Source: Streptococcus massiliensis DSM 18628 (GTDB lineage: Bacteria; Bacillota; Bacilli; Lactobacillales; Streptococcaceae). From it: DNA of 44,920 nucleotides. The notes under the pieces are model-generated. The model was not told where the DNA came from. It worked only from the letters and a program-made list of their open reading frames with translations, and did no database searches. A program made the translations under genes and the position numbers. Numbering within the stretch: the first letter of the stretch is position 1; each line of letters begins with the position of its first letter. Positions 5,501 to 20,121 of this stretch are shown here, one piece after another. The stretch lies in the NCBI RefSeq assembly GCF_000380065.1, contig NZ_KB904431.1, positions 2,900 to 47,819 of the forward strand. Reading direction: 5' to 3'.

Positions 5501-5935
5501 CAATTTACGATTTTCTTCAACCGCTTTTCCATATTCACTAGAGGAATTGTTGTCATCTTCTGCCGCATCGTCTAGATAACTAATTCCGCGATGCTTTACG
5601 ATATTTTTCAACACAATGAATAATTCCTCATTGGTCAATTTCTCTCTCATCCCCTTAACACGTAATTGGTAGGGATTAAGATTAAGAGAAAGGTTAGAAA
5701 AATCAGTTAAAAGCTGGTATTCCTCAAATAAATCAAGTAGCCGTTTTCCGCGGTGCTTCTTGCGACGTGACAATCTTCTTGCTTGCCTAAATCCGCGACG
5801 CTCCACATTGCTATCAGCTGTCGCCGCTGGAAAAATCCTAGAATTAGCATGCTTAATTTCACCTGTTTTCTTATCTAAAATTCCCACTCCAACAGATGCT
5901 ACACCAATATCTAAACCAAGAACTAAACCGTTCAT
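2555..5935 (-). CDS. cas9: Cas9, compact S. thermophilus CRISPR1 type (II-A)
   Basis: RNA-guided DNA endonuclease of 1126 residues, close to the 1121 of St1Cas9. Domains in order: RuvC-I with catalytic Asp9 (LVLGLDIGVASVGVGIL); arginine-rich bridge helix about 46-66; REC lobe about 70-500; RuvC-II with Glu513 (IVIEMARDK); HNH with His603 (YEIDHILPLS); RuvC-III with HHAVDAL around 741-747, containing Asp745; C-terminal wedge and PAM-interacting region to the end. All catalytic residues are intact. AAAAAGGAGACAAATAT precedes the ATG. The family prefers NNAGAAW-like PAMs, but the C-terminal domain diverges quickly and the PAM here is unknown. Upstream lies only AT-rich DNA (a weak TTGAAT/GTTAAT pair) and an IS remnant. 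Confidence 0.97.
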   Translation of the reverse strand: MNGLVLGLDIGVASVGVGILDKKTGEIKHANSRIFPAATADSNVERRGFRQARRLSRRKKHRGKRLLDLFEEYQLLTDFSNLSLNLNPYQLRVKGMREKLTNEELFIVLKNIVKHRGISYLDDAAEDDNNSSSEYGKAVEENRKLLEDKTPGQIQLERFEKYGQIRGDFTIIDENGENHRLINVFSTSAYKKEAERILRKQQELNAAITDEFIESYIKVLTGKRKYYHGPGSEKSPTDYGLYRKINGKTEKIADNLFGILIGKCSFYPEEYRAPKASYTAQEYNLLNDLNNLTVPTETKKLSEEQKHQIVEYAKTEKTLGAKKLLQYIAKLTNGTFDDIKGYRIDKSDKPDIHTFEVYRKMQTIETIDVAILPRETMDELAHILTLNTEREGIEEAIKKEFLNQFSEQQILELVQFRKKNSSLFAKGWHSFSIKLMKELIPELYTTSEEQMTILTRLGKQKAKETSKRTKYIDEKELTGEIYNPVAAKAVRQAIKIINLATKKYGIFDHIVIEMARDKNEEDEKKEIQKRQKANEDEKSAAMKKAATLYNGKVELPDSIFHGHKELATKIRLWYQQEERCLYTGKKIDIQNLIHNQHMYEIDHILPLSLSFDDSLANKVLVLATANQEKGQRTPFQAIDTMDDAWSFREMKAYVNGLKNFSKKKKEYLLTEEDISKIEVKQRFIERNLVDTRYASRVVLNSLQDFYRQNDFDTKISVVRGQFTSQLRRKWKIDKTRDTYHHHAVDALIIAASSQLRLWKKQGNPLISYKDGQFVDPETGEILSLTNDEYKELVFQPPYEHFVETLKSKKFENSILFSYQVDSKYNRKISDATIYATRQAQLGKDKSEETYVLGKIKDIYSQSGYDDFIKRYHKDKTQFLMYHKDPVTFEKVIEKILEVYPDKELNEKNKEVPCNPFDKYRKENGPIRKYSKKGKGPEIKSLKYYDNKLGNHIDITPNNSQNRVVLQSLKPWRTDVYFNGQTGKYELLGLKYADLQFKQGGGYGLSLEKYKEIKCREGVAEHSEFKFTLHKNDLILIKDTESGEQQLFRFLSRTMPNQKHYVELKPYDKAKFEGDQKLMKIFGSVAKGGQCLKGLNKSNLSIYKVKTDVLGDKHFIKKEGEQAKLDF

Positions 5936-14267: not shown

Positions 14268-15641
14268 TTATTCTGCACTCAAAGCTGCCATCGTTATATA
14301 GTTATATGGTTTATTGAAGTGCGGTAGGAAGAAAATATCTGTCAATGCCAATTTGTCAATCGTCACTTGTTCTTGAATAGCCAGTGAGAACATATGAATT
14401 CCCATTGAGATATTTTCATAAGATACCATTTGTGCACCCAAGATAACACGTGTGTCCTTATCGTAAACGATCTTAATCGCTACTTCGTAGTTGTCGTGCT
14501 TGATAAATTCTGGCTTTTGCAAATCGTTAAAGCCTGTTTCAACAGCATTATAACCAACCTCTTTAGCTTTTTCAAGAGTCAAGCCGGTTGAAACCATATG
14601 AAGTCCGTAGATAGAAATACCGTTTGAACCTTGCACACCGATTCCTTCTAATTCATGACCCGTTGCATTATAGGCGCCAACGATACCAGAACGAACGGCA
14701 TTTGAAGCAAGAGCGATATAGTTCATATCTTGACGAGCATTATCATAAATAGTTGCACAGTCACCAACTGCGTAAACGTCCGGCATTGATGTTTCTTGTT
14801 TCTTATTAACCAAGAAAGCACCATTACGGAAGAGTTCAATTTTACCATCAGCTAAGGCAGTGTTTGGACGGAAACCGACCGCAAGAATAACCATATCCAC
14901 ATCAAAAGTGGCTTTGTCAGTTACTAAGCGCTCAACTTTGCCATCTCCTTCGACTGCTTGTACTGTTTGACCAAGAGCCAATTCAATACCGTGGTCTTCC
15001 AAGTTCTTAGCCATTACATCTGTAAAGTCTTTGTCATAGTAGCCATTTAGAACAGTATCAACAATATCAACAAGAACAACTTTCTTGCCAAGGCGTTCGA
15101 AAGCTTCTGCCAATTCGACGCCAATATAGCCCGCACCAACTACTGCCACACGTTCGATATGCTTGCTCTTATCTTGAAGTTTTTCAATCACTTCTTCAGC
15201 ATTTTGGTATAATTTTACAAATTGCAGATTTTCCAAAGTTGCTTTAAATTCACGATTTCCTTCGACCAGCTCAACTCCCTTAATTGGTGGGACGATCGGT
15301 GTAGAACCTGTCGCAAAGATCAATTTTTCGTACGGCTCAACATGCTCTTGACCATTGACCAAGGCATGCACTTCTTTTTTATCATAATCAACAGAAAGAA
15401 CTGGACTTTCCATGTAGACTTTGGCACCTTTTGCTTCTAACTTTTCTTTGTCAGAATAGAACAAACCTTCTGGACCATCAATTTGCTTACCAATCCAAAG
15501 TGCCATTCCACAGCCAAGAAAAGAAATGTTAGAGTTTTGATCAAAAACAACGATTTCGTTTTCTGAACCAAAATTATCTAACATGGTATTAATGCATGCC
15601 GTACCAGCGTGATTCGCACCAATAACTACAATTTTACTCAT
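14268..15641 (-). CDS. nox: NADH oxidase, H2O-forming
   Basis: FAD-dependent enzyme of 457 residues that reduces oxygen to water with NADH, regenerating NAD+ and lowering oxygen stress. The N-terminal FAD-binding GANHAG motif (8-13) with His10, and the redox-active Cys44 in [11 protein letters not shown], mark the Nox-2 subgroup of the disulfide reductase family. A second dinucleotide motif [17 protein letters not shown] lies near 165-180, and AVGDC near 290 is the second FAD motif. Single gene with its own promoter, terminator and a cre site, divergent from apbE. Confidence 0.95.
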
Positions 15642-15906: not shown

Positions 15907-16830
15907 ATGCTGGCTTCTCGCTCGATTCGTTTAATGGGAACAACGATTACTATTTCTTTAGTGCATCAAAAAGCTGAGAGTCTGCTGGAGCAAATGCTCT
16001 CTCTGCTTGTACTTTATGAAAGGCGCTTCAGCGCCAATGATGACCGTTCTGAATTGATGCAAATCAATCATGGGGCGGGAAGAGAAAAGATTTGCGTTCA
16101 TCCAGACTTGTTTGAGCTGATTGAGCTGGGGAAAAAGCATAGCATAGCTCCCCAAAGTCATCTCAATATTAGCATCGGCCCTTTGGTTCAGACTTGGCGG
16201 ATTGGCTTTGCTGACGCAAGAGTGCCCAGCCAGGCTGAGATTGAGCAAGCGCTAGCCTTGACAGACCCGCATTTGATTGACTTAGATGCGGAGCAACAAA
16301 GCGTTTACTTGCAAAAAGAGGGCATGAAAATCGACCTCGGTGCTTTAGCAAAAGGCTATATCGCTGACAAAATCATTGATTTTCTCAAGCGGGAAGGCGT
16401 CACTTCTGCCCTTATCAATCTGGGTGGAAATGTGCTGACACTGGGAATAAACGAAGACAGCGGGCGTCCATGGCGGATTGGCATTCAAAATCCCCAGCTG
16501 CCGCGCGGGCATAATCTAGCCATTCTCACCGTTCAAAATCAGTCGGTGGTAACCTCGGGCGTTTATGAGCGCAGCCTTGATTTTCAAGGAAAAAGCTATC
16601 ATCACATCCTTGACCCAAGGACTGGCTATCCTATGGAAACCTCTGTCGCTAGCTTGACCATTGTATCTGACAAGTCGGTGGACGGCGAAATCTGGACGAC
16701 GCGTTTGTTCGGAGCAGAACCTGCTGCTATTTTACAGCAAATTGAGGCGCAAAAGGGACTGGAAGTCTTTATCATCACAGACGACAACCACTACTTCTAC
16801 AGCTCTGGCTTGCAGTCACAGCTACTCTAA
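15907..16830 (+). CDS. apbE: ApbE, FAD:protein FMN transferase (cytoplasmic form)
   Basis: Transfers FMN from FAD onto a Ser/Thr of a target protein through a phosphoester bond. The 307 residues show RLMGTT at the N-terminus (8-13), DLGALAKGYIADKI (143-156), LINLGGNV (169-176) and HHILDPRTGYP (232-242), all ApbE hallmarks. The late metal-site motif, usually ADxxxT, reads GEIWTT (260-265), with Glu for Asp. No signal peptide or lipobox is visible, so it should act in the cytoplasm. Start at the ATG after GAAAGG; first gene of a three-gene operon whose last product ends in two candidate flavinylation motifs. Confidence 0.93.
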   Translation: MLASRSIRLMGTTITISLVHQKAESLLEQMLSLLVLYERRFSANDDRSELMQINHGAGREKICVHPDLFELIELGKKHSIAPQSHLNISIGPLVQTWRIGFADARVPSQAEIEQALALTDPHLIDLDAEQQSVYLQKEGMKIDLGALAKGYIADKIIDFLKREGVTSALINLGGNVLTLGINEDSGRPWRIGIQNPQLPRGHNLAILTVQNQSVVTSGVYERSLDFQGKSYHHILDPRTGYPMETSVASLTIVSDKSVDGEIWTTRLFGAEPAAILQQIEAQKGLEVFIITDDNHYFYSSGLQSQLL

Positions 16831-16850
16831 ACAAAGAAAGGATATTTATT

Positions 16851-17459
16851 ATGTTAAAACTTATCGGTTTAGTTGGAACAAATTCCAAACAATCGACCAA
16901 TCGGAAACTCTTGCAGTATATGCAAAAGCATTTTGCAAACAAGGCGGAAATCGAACTCGTCGAAATTAAAGATATTCCGACTTTCAACAAGCCTGCCGAC
17001 AAAAAGGTTCCTGAAATCGTACTGGACATCGCAGCAAAAATTGATGAGGCTGACGGCGTCATCATTGGAACGCCTGAATACGACCACTCAATTCCTGCCG
17101 TGCTTATGAGCGCTCTGGCTTGGCTTTCTTATGGTATTTATCCCATGCTCAACAAGCCAGTCATGATTACCGGCGCTTCTTACGGCACACTCGGATCTTC
17201 ACGGGCGCAGCTTCAACTGCGGCAAATTCTCGATTCGCCCGAATTGAAAGCAACAGTCATGCCGGGTTCTGAATTTCTGCTTTCTCATTCCCTCCAAGCA
17301 TTTGACAAGGACGGTGACTTGATTGATTTAGATACAATCAAAAAATTGGATGCCCTCTTTGACGACTTCCGACTCTTTGTCAAAATCACGGAAAAATTGT
17401 CCAGCGCACAAGAGCTTTTGCACAAGGAAGCGGAAGATTTTGACTGGGAAAGTTTATAG
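16851..17459 (+). CDS. NAD(P)H-dependent FMN reductase family protein
   Basis: Flavodoxin-fold protein of 202 residues. It begins with the phosphate-binding LIGLVGTNSKQSTNRKLL and has the flavin-contact segment GTPEYDHSIPAVLMSAL (about 74-90) and GASYGTLGSSRAQLQLRQIL. Members reduce free or bound flavin with NAD(P)H. The start follows AAGAAAGGATATTTATT, 20 bases after apbE. It is a clear paralogue of the N-terminal half of the next gene, so the pair arose by tandem duplication. It lacks the C-terminal extension of its neighbour. Substrate not predictable. Confidence 0.9.
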   Translation: MLKLIGLVGTNSKQSTNRKLLQYMQKHFANKAEIELVEIKDIPTFNKPADKKVPEIVLDIAAKIDEADGVIIGTPEYDHSIPAVLMSALAWLSYGIYPMLNKPVMITGASYGTLGSSRAQLQLRQILDSPELKATVMPGSEFLLSHSLQAFDKDGDLIDLDTIKKLDALFDDFRLFVKITEKLSSAQELLHKEAEDFDWESL

Positions 17460-17477
17460 GAAAGAAAGGAAACAAAC

Positions 17478-18716
17478 ATGAAATTTGTAGGACTTGTCGG
17501 CTCAAACTATGAGCAATCGTATAATCGTAAATTATTAGAATTTATTCGCAAGCAATTCAAGCTAAAATTTGAACTGGAAGTGTTGGAAATTGACGATGTT
17601 CCAATGTTCAATCAGGACGAGAAATGGGACGAAAGTTTCCAGTTGCGTCTCTTGTACAATAAAATCACTCGGGCTGACGGAGTGATTATCGCAACGCCTG
17701 AGCACAATCACACCATTACCGCTTCCCTCAAGAGCGTTCTCGAATGGCTGTCTTACGAGGTGCACCCTTTTGAAAATAAGCCAGTCATGATTGTCGGTGC
17801 TTCTTACTACGATCAAGGGACTTCGCGCGCCCAAGTTCATCTGCGCAAAATCCTCGATGCACCGGGCGTAAATGCCTACACGCTTCCAGGGAATGAATTT
17901 TTGCTTGGAAAAGCCAAGGAAGCCTTTGACGACCAAGGCAATATCACCAACGAAGGCACGGTAAACTTCCTTGAAACTTGTTTGGATAACTTTGTTAAAT
18001 ATGTAGAGGTGGTTTCAAAATTGAAAAAACCAAAACCAATCGAACCAGAAGACTTGGATGTCACGCGTCCAATCGCTACGACTATTACAGGTGTTGACCC
18101 TGACGACCCAGACTGGGTTGAAAAAGCTGCCGAATTGGTCGGTGCCGTCTCTGGCGATACTTATGTCAAGCTAGACCACGGTATTCTCACGGTCAACCAA
18201 ATCGATATGTTCCTCAAGTCCATGCCGTTTGAGCTGACTTATGCCGATGACAACAACCAATTCCTCTACTATAATAACGCTCATCAAGACCCAGACACCA
18301 TGTTTGCCAAACGTGTGCCATCACAATCTGGCAGCCGCTTGTCAACGGTGCATAATTCTCTGCCTGCCGCTCGCATGAAAAATGTCGAATGGGTAGTCGG
18401 AAGCCTTCGCAATGGGAACGAAGAATATGTCCGAACGCTTGTTCCAGGCTCACCAGACGGTGTCATTAACACCCACAACTACCAAGCTATGTATTATCCA
18501 GACGGTTCTTACGCTGGTATCAATGAAATAGTCTTTAACTTCAAGCCTTGGTTGGACTGGTATCTTCAAACAACCGGACAACGCTTAGTTGGCGGCGCTG
18601 CTTCTACTGCTTACAATCCACATGGTGGAGCAGATGCCACATCAGGTGCTTCAGATGCTGGCGGAGCTCCAGCTAATGCACCTGCCGACGCTACATCAGG
18701 TGCTTCAAGCCATTAA
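17478..18716 (+). CDS. FMN reductase fused to a PAS-like domain and a tail with two flavinylation motifs
   Basis: Three-part protein of 412 residues. Residues 1-180 are an NAD(P)H:FMN reductase domain (ATPEHNHTITASLKSVLEWL). About 195-365 is a PAS-like sensor/flavin fold (MPFELTYADDNNQFLYYNN and SYAGINEIVFNFKPWLDWYL). Residues 366-412 are a Gly/Ala/Ser-rich tail with DATSGAS twice (386-392 and 404-410), which fits the ApbE target consensus DxxS/TGAS/T. FMN would be attached at Ser392 and Ser410 by the ApbE encoded two genes upstream. No signal peptide, so probably cytoplasmic. Likely a multi-flavin electron-transfer enzyme; the final acceptor is unknown. Confidence 0.88.
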   Translation: MKFVGLVGSNYEQSYNRKLLEFIRKQFKLKFELEVLEIDDVPMFNQDEKWDESFQLRLLYNKITRADGVIIATPEHNHTITASLKSVLEWLSYEVHPFENKPVMIVGASYYDQGTSRAQVHLRKILDAPGVNAYTLPGNEFLLGKAKEAFDDQGNITNEGTVNFLETCLDNFVKYVEVVSKLKKPKPIEPEDLDVTRPIATTITGVDPDDPDWVEKAAELVGAVSGDTYVKLDHGILTVNQIDMFLKSMPFELTYADDNNQFLYYNNAHQDPDTMFAKRVPSQSGSRLSTVHNSLPAARMKNVEWVVGSLRNGNEEYVRTLVPGSPDGVINTHNYQAMYYPDGSYAGINEIVFNFKPWLDWYLQTTGQRLVGGAASTAYNPHGGADATSGASDAGGAPANAPADATSGASSH

Positions 18717-18819: not shown

Positions 18820-19356
18820 CTATTTTATCTTTGAGATATCCTTTTCAACAACTTTATTTGAAACAGCTCCAATATAACGTTTGGCTACTTTACCTTGGCT
18901 GTCAATCAGGTATTCTGTTGGATAGGCCTGAACTTGATAGGCTCTGAGTGTATCTGCGTTCTTATTGTCAAAAAGGACTGGAATATGTGAGTATCCTTGT
19001 TGAGCAAACCAACTTTTAAAATCATCCACTGATTTTTCTTGATTGAATTCAGGTGCTACAATTGTCAATACTTCTATTTTTTTGTCTTTCTTAGCCGCTA
19101 ATTCTTCAACTTCAGATAAACTCTTGATACAAGGTGGACACCAACTCGCCCAAAATTTTAAATAAACCTTTTTTCCTTTGTAGTCCGATAATTTAACAAT
19201 ATTGCCATTTAAATCTTGCAACTCAAAATCTGGTGCAGCTTTCCCCACTAGCCCAGTTTGAGTTTGGTCATTGCTATTAGACTGACTGGCACTTTCACAA
19301 GCACTCAACACAAAAATAGCCAAAAAAGCTATAAGTACACCTTTAAGATATTTCAT
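18820..19356 (-). CDS. etrx1: Surface thioredoxin-like lipoprotein (Etrx1-like)
   Basis: TlpA/ResA-type thiol-disulfide protein of 178 residues. Lipobox LSAC (Cys20) anchors it to the outer face of the membrane. The thioredoxin domain has the active site FWASWCPPCIKS (Cys73/Cys76). In S. pneumoniae, Etrx1 receives electrons from CcdA and keeps exported methionine sulfoxide reductase reduced. Directly downstream of its partner ccdA1 (12-base gap). Name given by similarity to the pneumococcal pair. Confidence 0.88.
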   Translation of the reverse strand: MKYLKGVLIAFLAIFVLSACESASQSNSNDQTQTGLVGKAAPDFELQDLNGNIVKLSDYKGKKVYLKFWASWCPPCIKSLSEVEELAAKKDKKIEVLTIVAPEFNQEKSVDDFKSWFAQQGYSHIPVLFDNKNADTLRAYQVQAYPTEYLIDSQGKVAKRYIGAVSNKVVEKDISKIK

Positions 19357-19368
19357 AACATTCCTCCA

Positions 19369-20076
19369 TTATCCAAACAATCCCGATAAGCTATTTACTT
19401 GACCTAAGAGTAATAAAATTCCCATTAAAACAATGAGTGCTCCTCCTATCTTTTTAAGAATACCCATATATGGCTTGATTTTTGAAAAATAACGCATAAC
19501 CAAACTAGAAGCTAGAGCCAAAATAAGAAAAGGCAGAGCCATACCCGCAGTGTAAATTAAGGTTAAAAGAGAGCCTTGGATAGCCCCACTAGAACCAGAC
19601 GCTGCAATTCCAAGGACGCTACTTAAAACTGGACCAATACATGGTGTCCAACCAAAACTAAAGGTAATTCCCAGTAAAAAAGCTGTCCAAAAATCATTTC
19701 GTTGAGCATTTCTCTTAAGATTAACTGTTTTTTGATACTGTAAAAATTGAAAATGAAGGATTTCCATCTGATGCAGCCCTAAGAGAATAATGATAATTCC
19801 CATCATATAGCGAAACCATGTTGCATAGAAAAAGCTTCCAATAGCTCCTGCTCCAAAGCCCAATATGAAAAAAACAGTTGAAAGTCCCATAATAAAGCAA
19901 AGGGTCTTAACTAAGCCATACCAAACAAATTCCTGTCCCAAAATCCGAATACTTCGTGGCTCGTCTGTATCCAACAACAATCCTATATAAACAGGCAAAA
20001 GCGGAAAGATGCAAGGCGAGAAGAAAGACAAGATACCTGCCAAAAATACTGATATAAAAAAGAAATTTCCTTCCAT
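19369..20076 (-). CDS. ccdA1: CcdA-type thiol-disulfide transmembrane electron carrier
   Basis: Membrane protein of 235 residues with six hydrophobic segments that passes electrons from cytoplasmic thioredoxin to surface thioredoxins. The paired cysteines are in FFSPCIFPLLPVY and FGWTPCIGPVLSS. The start at 20076 (MEGNFFFISVFLAG) follows CGAAAGGATACAG and matches the paralogue ccdA2; an in-frame ORF reaches 20112 without a ribosome site. Operon with etrx1. Confidence 0.92.
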   Translation of the reverse strand: MEGNFFFISVFLAGILSFFSPCIFPLLPVYIGLLLDTDEPRSIRILGQEFVWYGLVKTLCFIMGLSTVFFILGFGAGAIGSFFYATWFRYMMGIIIILLGLHQMEILHFQFLQYQKTVNLKRNAQRNDFWTAFLLGITFSFGWTPCIGPVLSSVLGIAASGSSGAIQGSLLTLIYTAGMALPFLILALASSLVMRYFSKIKPYMGILKKIGGALIVLMGILLLLGQVNSLSGLFG

Positions 20077-20121
20077 CTGTATCCTTTCGTCAAAAATATA
20101 GTCGTTTTTCACTATAAAACT

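Follow-up and report, generated by a model that had tools for sequence, protein, structure and literature searches.

A Streptococcus massiliensis operon encodes ApbE and a probable flavinylated oxidoreductase with a PAS_10 domain and a motif-bearing tail

A three-gene operon for probable flavinylation

The window analysed here, a stretch of 44,920 nucleotides from a chromosome contig of Streptococcus massiliensis DSM 18628 (NZ_KB904431.1, positions 2,900 to 47,819; G000:C68), carries three genes arranged head to tail. They encode ApbE, a transferase that moves flavin mononucleotide (FMN) from flavin adenine dinucleotide (FAD) onto proteins, a stand-alone NAD(P)H:FMN reductase of the FMN_red type, and a larger protein, called the target below, in which an FMN_red domain is followed by a PAS_10 domain and by a tail with two copies of the flavinylation motif DATSGAS. 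We think it probable that the operon product is a soluble NAD(P)H oxidoreductase with covalently attached FMN, and that the FMNs of the tail serve as swinging redox arms. ApbE flavinylation has hitherto been studied mostly for its part in carrying electrons outside the cytosol.

All three genes lie on the plus strand: apbE at 15907..16830 (307 residues; PF02424, 271.8 bits against a cut-off of 25.6), the stand-alone reductase gene at 16851..17459 (202 residues; PF03358, 121.4 bits) and the target gene at 17478..18716 (412 residues). The FMN_red domain of the target comprises residues 1-147 (PF03358, 120.4 bits) and the PAS_10 domain residues 242-355 (18201..18542; PF13596, 78.2 bits, cut-off 22.1). 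Its last 42 residues contain DATSGAS twice, at residues 386-392 (18633..18653) and 404-410 (18687..18707), with Ser392 and Ser410 as the predicted sites of FMN attachment. The original prediction, which had placed both motifs in the third gene of the apbE operon, was correct in its coordinates and reading frames, and the tail is indeed free, as PF04205 (FMN_bind) gives no match to the target at E up to 1. It had also described an ApbE without an export signal beside its likely target, which agrees with what we find: the genes are adjacent, and the N-termini of ApbE, the stand-alone reductase and the target are not strongly hydrophobic, with no export signal seen. Within 45 residues of the start, the highest 15-residue hydropathy reaches 1.15, 0.27 and 0.40, respectively, compared with 2.85 for an ApbE of the lipoprotein type (L308); a second intended control (L218) gave only 0.87, probably because an upstream start had been used for its frame.

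In the mechanism that we propose, the cytosolic ApbE would transfer FMN from FAD onto Ser392 and Ser410 in the tail, which is flexible and rich in Ala and Gly. Electrons would be drawn from NAD(P)H by the FMN_red domain, for which the stand-alone FMN_red protein is a probable partner by analogy with the CrdAB system discussed below, and the tail FMNs, as short swinging arms, would collect them at the reductase site and pass them onward, with the PAS_10 domain as their putative docking partner. The suggested roles of arms and PAS domain derive from the fact that the motif stays with the PAS domain in stand-alone and multi-PAS proteins. A further flavin inside the PAS domain, which had been allowed for originally, finds no support, and LOV-type photochemistry in this domain is ruled out, because residues 200-412 of the target contain no cysteine.

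The tail motif compared with chance

We define the strict motif as Dxx[S/T]GA[S/T] and the relaxed motif as a form that allows other residues at the fifth position, e.g. DxxSSAS. The tail is of low complexity, and the DATSGAS copies might be no more than an unmodified by-product of a repetitive Ala/Gly/Asp/Ser sequence: when the 42-residue tail was shuffled 200,000 times, at least one motif appeared in 0.8% of the shuffles, and at least two in 0.0015%. This explanation is scarcely credible, since 325 strict motifs were observed in 168 tails of relatives versus 1.66 expected from shuffles, and since the same tail arrangement is flavinylated in Lactococcus, according to the available parts of a study by Huang, Meheust, Barquera and Light (mSystems 2024; PMC11334425). 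All fetched loci together gave 169 distinct proteins whose PAS part is complete; in the 62,373 residues of these proteins that precede the end of the first PAS domain, the strict motif occurs just three times.

The search patterns fix some of the letters, and conservation of those letters is not independent evidence. In a pattern-free MAFFT alignment of 24 proteins, D404, A405, T406, A409 and S410 of the second motif are invariant, S407 is nearly so and G408 is not. The motifs are kept in relatives while the linkers vary, successive strict motifs being mostly 4 to 29 residues apart, and the kept serines are encoded by both TCN and AGY codons; it is therefore the protein letter that is conserved. 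The fifth position of 389 relaxed matches is occupied by G in 334 cases, S in 51 and A in 4; in another ApbE target a G-to-A change leaves about half of the flavinylation, as the available part of the report states (PMC12052999).

When the whole genome of S. massiliensis was searched for the motif at the DNA level, irrespective of frame, 7 matches were found on the forward and 8 on the reverse strand, versus 3 and 5 for the reversed control. The strict motifs that are in frame are the two of the tail, DAVSGAS in a long open frame described below (L220), DDTTGAT in another frame (L230), and those in two short frames (L221 and L233). L230 (G000:C46, around position 49752) is a very long open frame that by eye resembles a repeat-rich surface protein; its DDTTGAT is probably a chance motif.

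Distribution in Lactobacillales

The fetched loci over-represent Streptococcus (the 80 named loci comprise 78 from Streptococcus and 2 from Enterococcus cecorum), and the genome samples include related genomes, for which no correction was applied. In the genus sample the target has matches with E of 1e-30 or lower in 175 of 197 genomes; 162 remain when 13 with matches to the reductase alone or to fragments are set aside. With the PAS-tail half as the query, matches were obtained in 135 of the 295 genomes and 42 of the 74 genera of the Lactobacillales sample, mostly with two or three motifs. The idea of a phylum-wide family was rejected, as the same query matches only 2 of 398 Bacillota genomes, both from Streptococcus, in a sample that contains few Lactobacillales. 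If the proposed mechanism is true, a large group of soluble cytosolic multi-flavin carriers, with at least two predicted flavins tethered next to a PAS domain, would be added in streptococci, enterococci and their kin, across those 42 sampled genera.

The 40 loci from the order encode 41 distinct proteins, with the strict motif in 33 and the relaxed motif in 40. When the 169 proteins from all fetched loci are taken together, one or more strict motifs are present in 159 and one or more relaxed ones in 168. An FMN_red part is detectable in 163. The other six comprise two fragments, three PAS-tail proteins that stand alone and a protein with two PAS domains (L286, from genome G403), which is also the sole one without a relaxed motif. 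The number of relaxed copies after the first PAS domain ranges from 1 to 7 among the relatives, so that two covalent sites, as originally predicted for the target, are specific to a lineage. The unit is intact on two plasmids as well: pGdh442 of L. lactis (apbE, WP_011915230.1; reductase, WP_011915229.1; target with two DATSGAS, WP_011915228.1) and p1 of E. faecium E39, where IS1216 lies on both sides and the target (WP_002339142.1) carries DAVSSAS, DAVTSAS and DAVSSAS.

A profile of relatives matches two PDB entries, 2qkp (E 7.9e-31) and 3cax (E 6.5e-11), and the likeness to these PAS_10 structures is one of fold by profile. D257, N259 and Q261 are kept in the target family (35/35), and N, D and I stand in their places in 2qkp. 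Since the motif-less L286 has these three residues in one of its PAS copies, the loop cannot serve as a diagnostic feature.

Linkage to ApbE and to the partner reductase

A search for the reductase-PAS-tail architecture and its co-occurrence with apbE, as suggested in the original prediction, found operon and motif conserved in relatives, and ApbE is present in all 135 genomes of the order that match the PAS-tail query versus 127 of the 160 others (Fisher p 3e-10, uncorrected for relatedness). The motif is absent from at least one of these matching genomes, G403, which encodes L286. Upstream DNA of at least 1.7 kb was available for 143 distinct proteins, and for 119 of them the fetched stretch includes apbE; at the order loci this is so in 31 of 40. 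Four genomes of the genus sample are without ApbE, three of which have no match to the target and the fourth (G161) a broken target; another genome (G077) has a split apbE and a target that stops short of the tail.

Several observations weigh against the mechanism proposed above. apbE is common in the order generally (262 of 295 genomes), and it is not in the fetched stretch for the remaining 24 of the 143 proteins, some of whose genomes have ApbE elsewhere (G023, with a frame of 312 residues, G427 and G420). The target is broken in spite of the presence of apbE in G015, G109, G125 and G134, and because these four genomes keep apbE, broken targets alone are not evidence of co-loss. Since some of the six genomes with broken genes (G015, G077, G109, G125, G134 and G161) are incomplete, with completeness of 83% for G109, 93% for G077 and 95% for G015, assembly errors are possible among them. 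Of the six, only G161 and G077 enter into our case for linkage. Finally, genomes of the Lactococcus family encode proteins that adjoin apbE and consist of FMN_red and a tail with no PAS domain, from which it follows that the PAS domain is not needed for flavinylation.

At 37 of the 40 order loci whose tails were inspected, the target adjoins a stand-alone FMN_red homologue, and the 202-residue reductase is probably a partner subunit of the target. That both FMN_red proteins are kept in these 37 loci points to NAD(P)H-driven catalysis, and it bears on a different role for the tail FMNs, which might buffer flavin or signal the redox state via the PAS domain with no catalytic transfer. PAS domains are commonly sensory, the number of motifs varies between lineages, and regulators are encoded nearby in some cases (an Rgg/XRE-like protein, recognized by eye, at 14 of 51 loci, and a Crp/Fnr protein beside the L. 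lactis plasmid operon), all of which would suit a protein that stores flavin or senses the redox state. The PAS domain has no attached output domain, however, and together with the retention of both reductases this makes such a role quite improbable.

Proteins with other domain combinations

The composition of the target varies among its relatives. Two proteins (L268 and L269) combine a single FMN_red domain with three copies of PAS, which in L268 are seen as three PAS_10 stretches, and have motif clusters after each PAS; a loose pattern finds nine motif-like sequences in either of them, and the strict one three and four, respectively. Two others (L277 and L278) consist of PAS_10 and three motifs with no FMN_red, and in some genomes of their genus (L312 and L314) an FMN_red gene is found near apbE. 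The second copy at locus L279 (5973-6665) is likewise a stand-alone PAS_10 domain with a motif tail and no reductase domain. In L268, L269 and L270, with two to three PAS copies, motif-like clusters follow the complete copies.

These proteins bear on an alternative in which the tail FMN is the tethered active-site FMN of the FMN_red domain and not an additional relay, with a separate role for the PAS domain. According to the available parts of the paper by Huang et al., who suggest tethering for the Lactococcus proteins, the unstructured extension with the predicted sites is near the flavin site of FMN_red (PMC11334425), and the Lactococcus-family forms without PAS, with FMN_red and tail as their only parts, fit this well. 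Tethering would call for one motif per reductase domain, but at least two strict motifs are present in 143 of the 169 proteins. Besides, the PAS-tail proteins L277, L278 and the second copy of L279 have no FMN_red, and in L268 and L269 every PAS copy is followed by a motif cluster. We therefore regard tethering as unlikely, though it deserves more weight than the other alternatives considered here, and prefer to see the tail FMNs as redox arms.

The same architectures allow for a broader and more tentative proposal. PAS_10 with a multi-motif tail may be a self-contained flavin-carrier module of Lactobacillales, in which PAS would replace FMN_bind as the docking partner, the number of arms (1 to 7 relaxed copies, with up to three PAS domains) would be tuned by lineage for cytosolic electron hand-over or storage, and ApbE would also accept DxxSSAS. 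We consider this extended version possible, and hold it with less confidence than the mechanism for the operon itself.

Among Streptococcaceae that do not have the PAS form, a protein composed of FMN_red, FMN_bind and FAD_binding_2 adjoins the stand-alone reductase in all six cases scanned (L126, L139, L160, L163, L165 and L169). apbE is not beside this pair: of 16 stretches, only L142 contains an apbE fragment, and in the five genomes of this type in which apbE was placed (G061, G123, G139, G144 and G165) it is elsewhere. The stand-alone reductase thus pairs with a large partner of either the FMN_bind type or the PAS-tail type, and ApbE goes with bare tails and PAS-tails. The FMN_bind-type proteins resemble the target in the paired stand-alone FMN_red, the cytosolic layout and the motif (e.g. 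DAISGAS or DAVSGAS), and differ from it by the catalytic FAD_binding_2 half and by the lack of an adjoining apbE. In the protein of this type at L139 (G217) the strict pattern finds no motif.

The DxxSSAS variant

The original prediction named homologues that keep the operon and lose the DxxSGAS residues as the observation that would speak against it. Taken literally, such a case exists in Streptococcus sp. DD10, in which the apbE frame is open and the tail reads DATASAS and DATSSAS. We do not accept it as a certain loss of the motif, as there are several further genomes with apbE in the operon, and the E. faecium plasmid, in which no motif form but DxxSSAS occurs; DD10 is more probably a case of variation. 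Judged by the sequences, DxxSSAS is probably a variant of the motif that ApbE tolerates, and the genomes with no other form are natural tests of the ApbE code.

Comparison with known flavoproteins

The layout of the target had been thought to be without a characterised counterpart, which requires correction. As far as the available parts of their paper go, Huang et al. describe FMN_red proteins, mainly from Firmicutes, with a C-terminal extension that bears one to two motifs and with apbE nearby, and report that those of L. lactis and L. taiwanensis are flavinylated by ApbE, as judged by fluorescence after sodium dodecyl sulfate-polyacrylamide gel electrophoresis, whereas alanine mutants are not (PMC11334425). 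The target has all three features of this class, i.e. the FMN_red domain, the motif-bearing C-terminal extension and the co-location with apbE. It differs by features that the available text does not describe, namely a stand-alone FMN_red partner, stand-alone or multi-PAS forms and DxxSSAS, and the word PAS has no whole-word match in the main text (PMC11334425). Lactococcus has both forms, and the proteins tested there may be of the one with PAS or of the one without.

Among the literature matches listed, in a full-text search with most subscription papers and bioRxiv preprints outside its scope, no PAS-tail protein appeared in titles or abstracts, and Huang et al. was the only work on flavinylated FMN_red. 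The main text of a survey published in eLife in 2021 (PMC8238504), to the extent available, contains no mention of FMN_red, FMN reductase, Streptococcus or Lactobacill. As the FMN_red-tail class is known from Huang et al., the new part, as far as our searches reach, is the PAS_10-tail module.

Other systems share single features with the target. CrdAB, the cinnamate reductase of Vibrio ruber, consists of a stand-alone FMN_red subunit and a fused subunit with FMN_bind and FAD_binding_2; our literature search yielded no paper on it. Its two subunits, one of FMN_red alone and one with FMN_red fused to other domains, correspond to the second and third genes of the operon, and the difference is in the large subunit, where the target has PAS_10 and a free tail instead of FMN_bind and FAD_binding_2. 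The fumarate reductase of Klebsiella is a cytosolic protein with neither FMN_red nor PAS, and differs from the target in that its motif lies inside an FMN_bind domain. What it shares with the target is the motif of an ApbE substrate, on which mutational work is reported in the available part of PMC12052999. A LOV protein has been engineered to carry covalent, ApbE-attached FMN and thus presents such a flavin on a domain of the PAS superfamily (PMC10722498, from the part available); it is artificial and light-active and has the motif in the flavin site, unlike the target, which is natural, bears the motif outside the PAS fold and has no cysteine there.

ApbE and its second likely substrate

The only ApbE match of the genome is the one encoded in the window, which covers profile positions 1-265 of 266. 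In ApbE, an acidic residue that precedes the C-terminal [ST]T segment has a metal-site role. Near this segment we found Glu in 20 of 20 cytosolic-type and Asp in 2 of 2 secreted-type proteins, a conservative change, with the type deduced from the protein sequences. The text of PMC4767422, in so far as it was available, gave no matches for ApbE metal-site residues, and the accessible parts of PMC7074142 and PMC12504390 deal with other ApbE matters.

L220 (G000:C2, around position 5917) is a frame of 957 residues that comprises OYE, FMN_bind and FAD_binding_2 and has DAVSGAS. Its product is a likely second substrate of the single ApbE, judging from the motif, and ApbE is therefore probably not devoted to the target alone. 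One could go further and suppose that ApbE serves the L220 protein, whose DAVSGAS lies in FMN_bind, and that the tail is modified incidentally or never. We find this very improbable: apbE adjoins the PAS-tail gene and the L220 gene is on a different contig, 159 of 169 relatives have retained the strict motif in the tail, and the three genes occur together on plasmids.

Genomic neighbourhood

The divergent neighbour of the operon (14268..15641, minus strand), which we take to be an NADH oxidase-like flavoprotein, has homologues at related loci: when flanks of up to 5 kb were compared, 70 of the 80 named loci gave a BLAST match (E 1e-15). It suggests a redox-balance setting for the operon and nothing further. 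Neither the flanking genes at the 80 named loci nor the regulator genes at the 51 loci examined revealed an electron acceptor. Downstream of the operon, minus-strand genes at 18820-20112 presumably encode TlpA/ResA-like and CcdA-like proteins, with homologues in 31 of the 80 named loci each. The helix-turn-helix regulator, Rgg/XRE-like by eye, is encoded at L236, L273, L274, L276, L289-L291, L296 and L298-L303, and on pGdh442 of L. lactis the Crp/Fnr regulator is located upstream of the operon.

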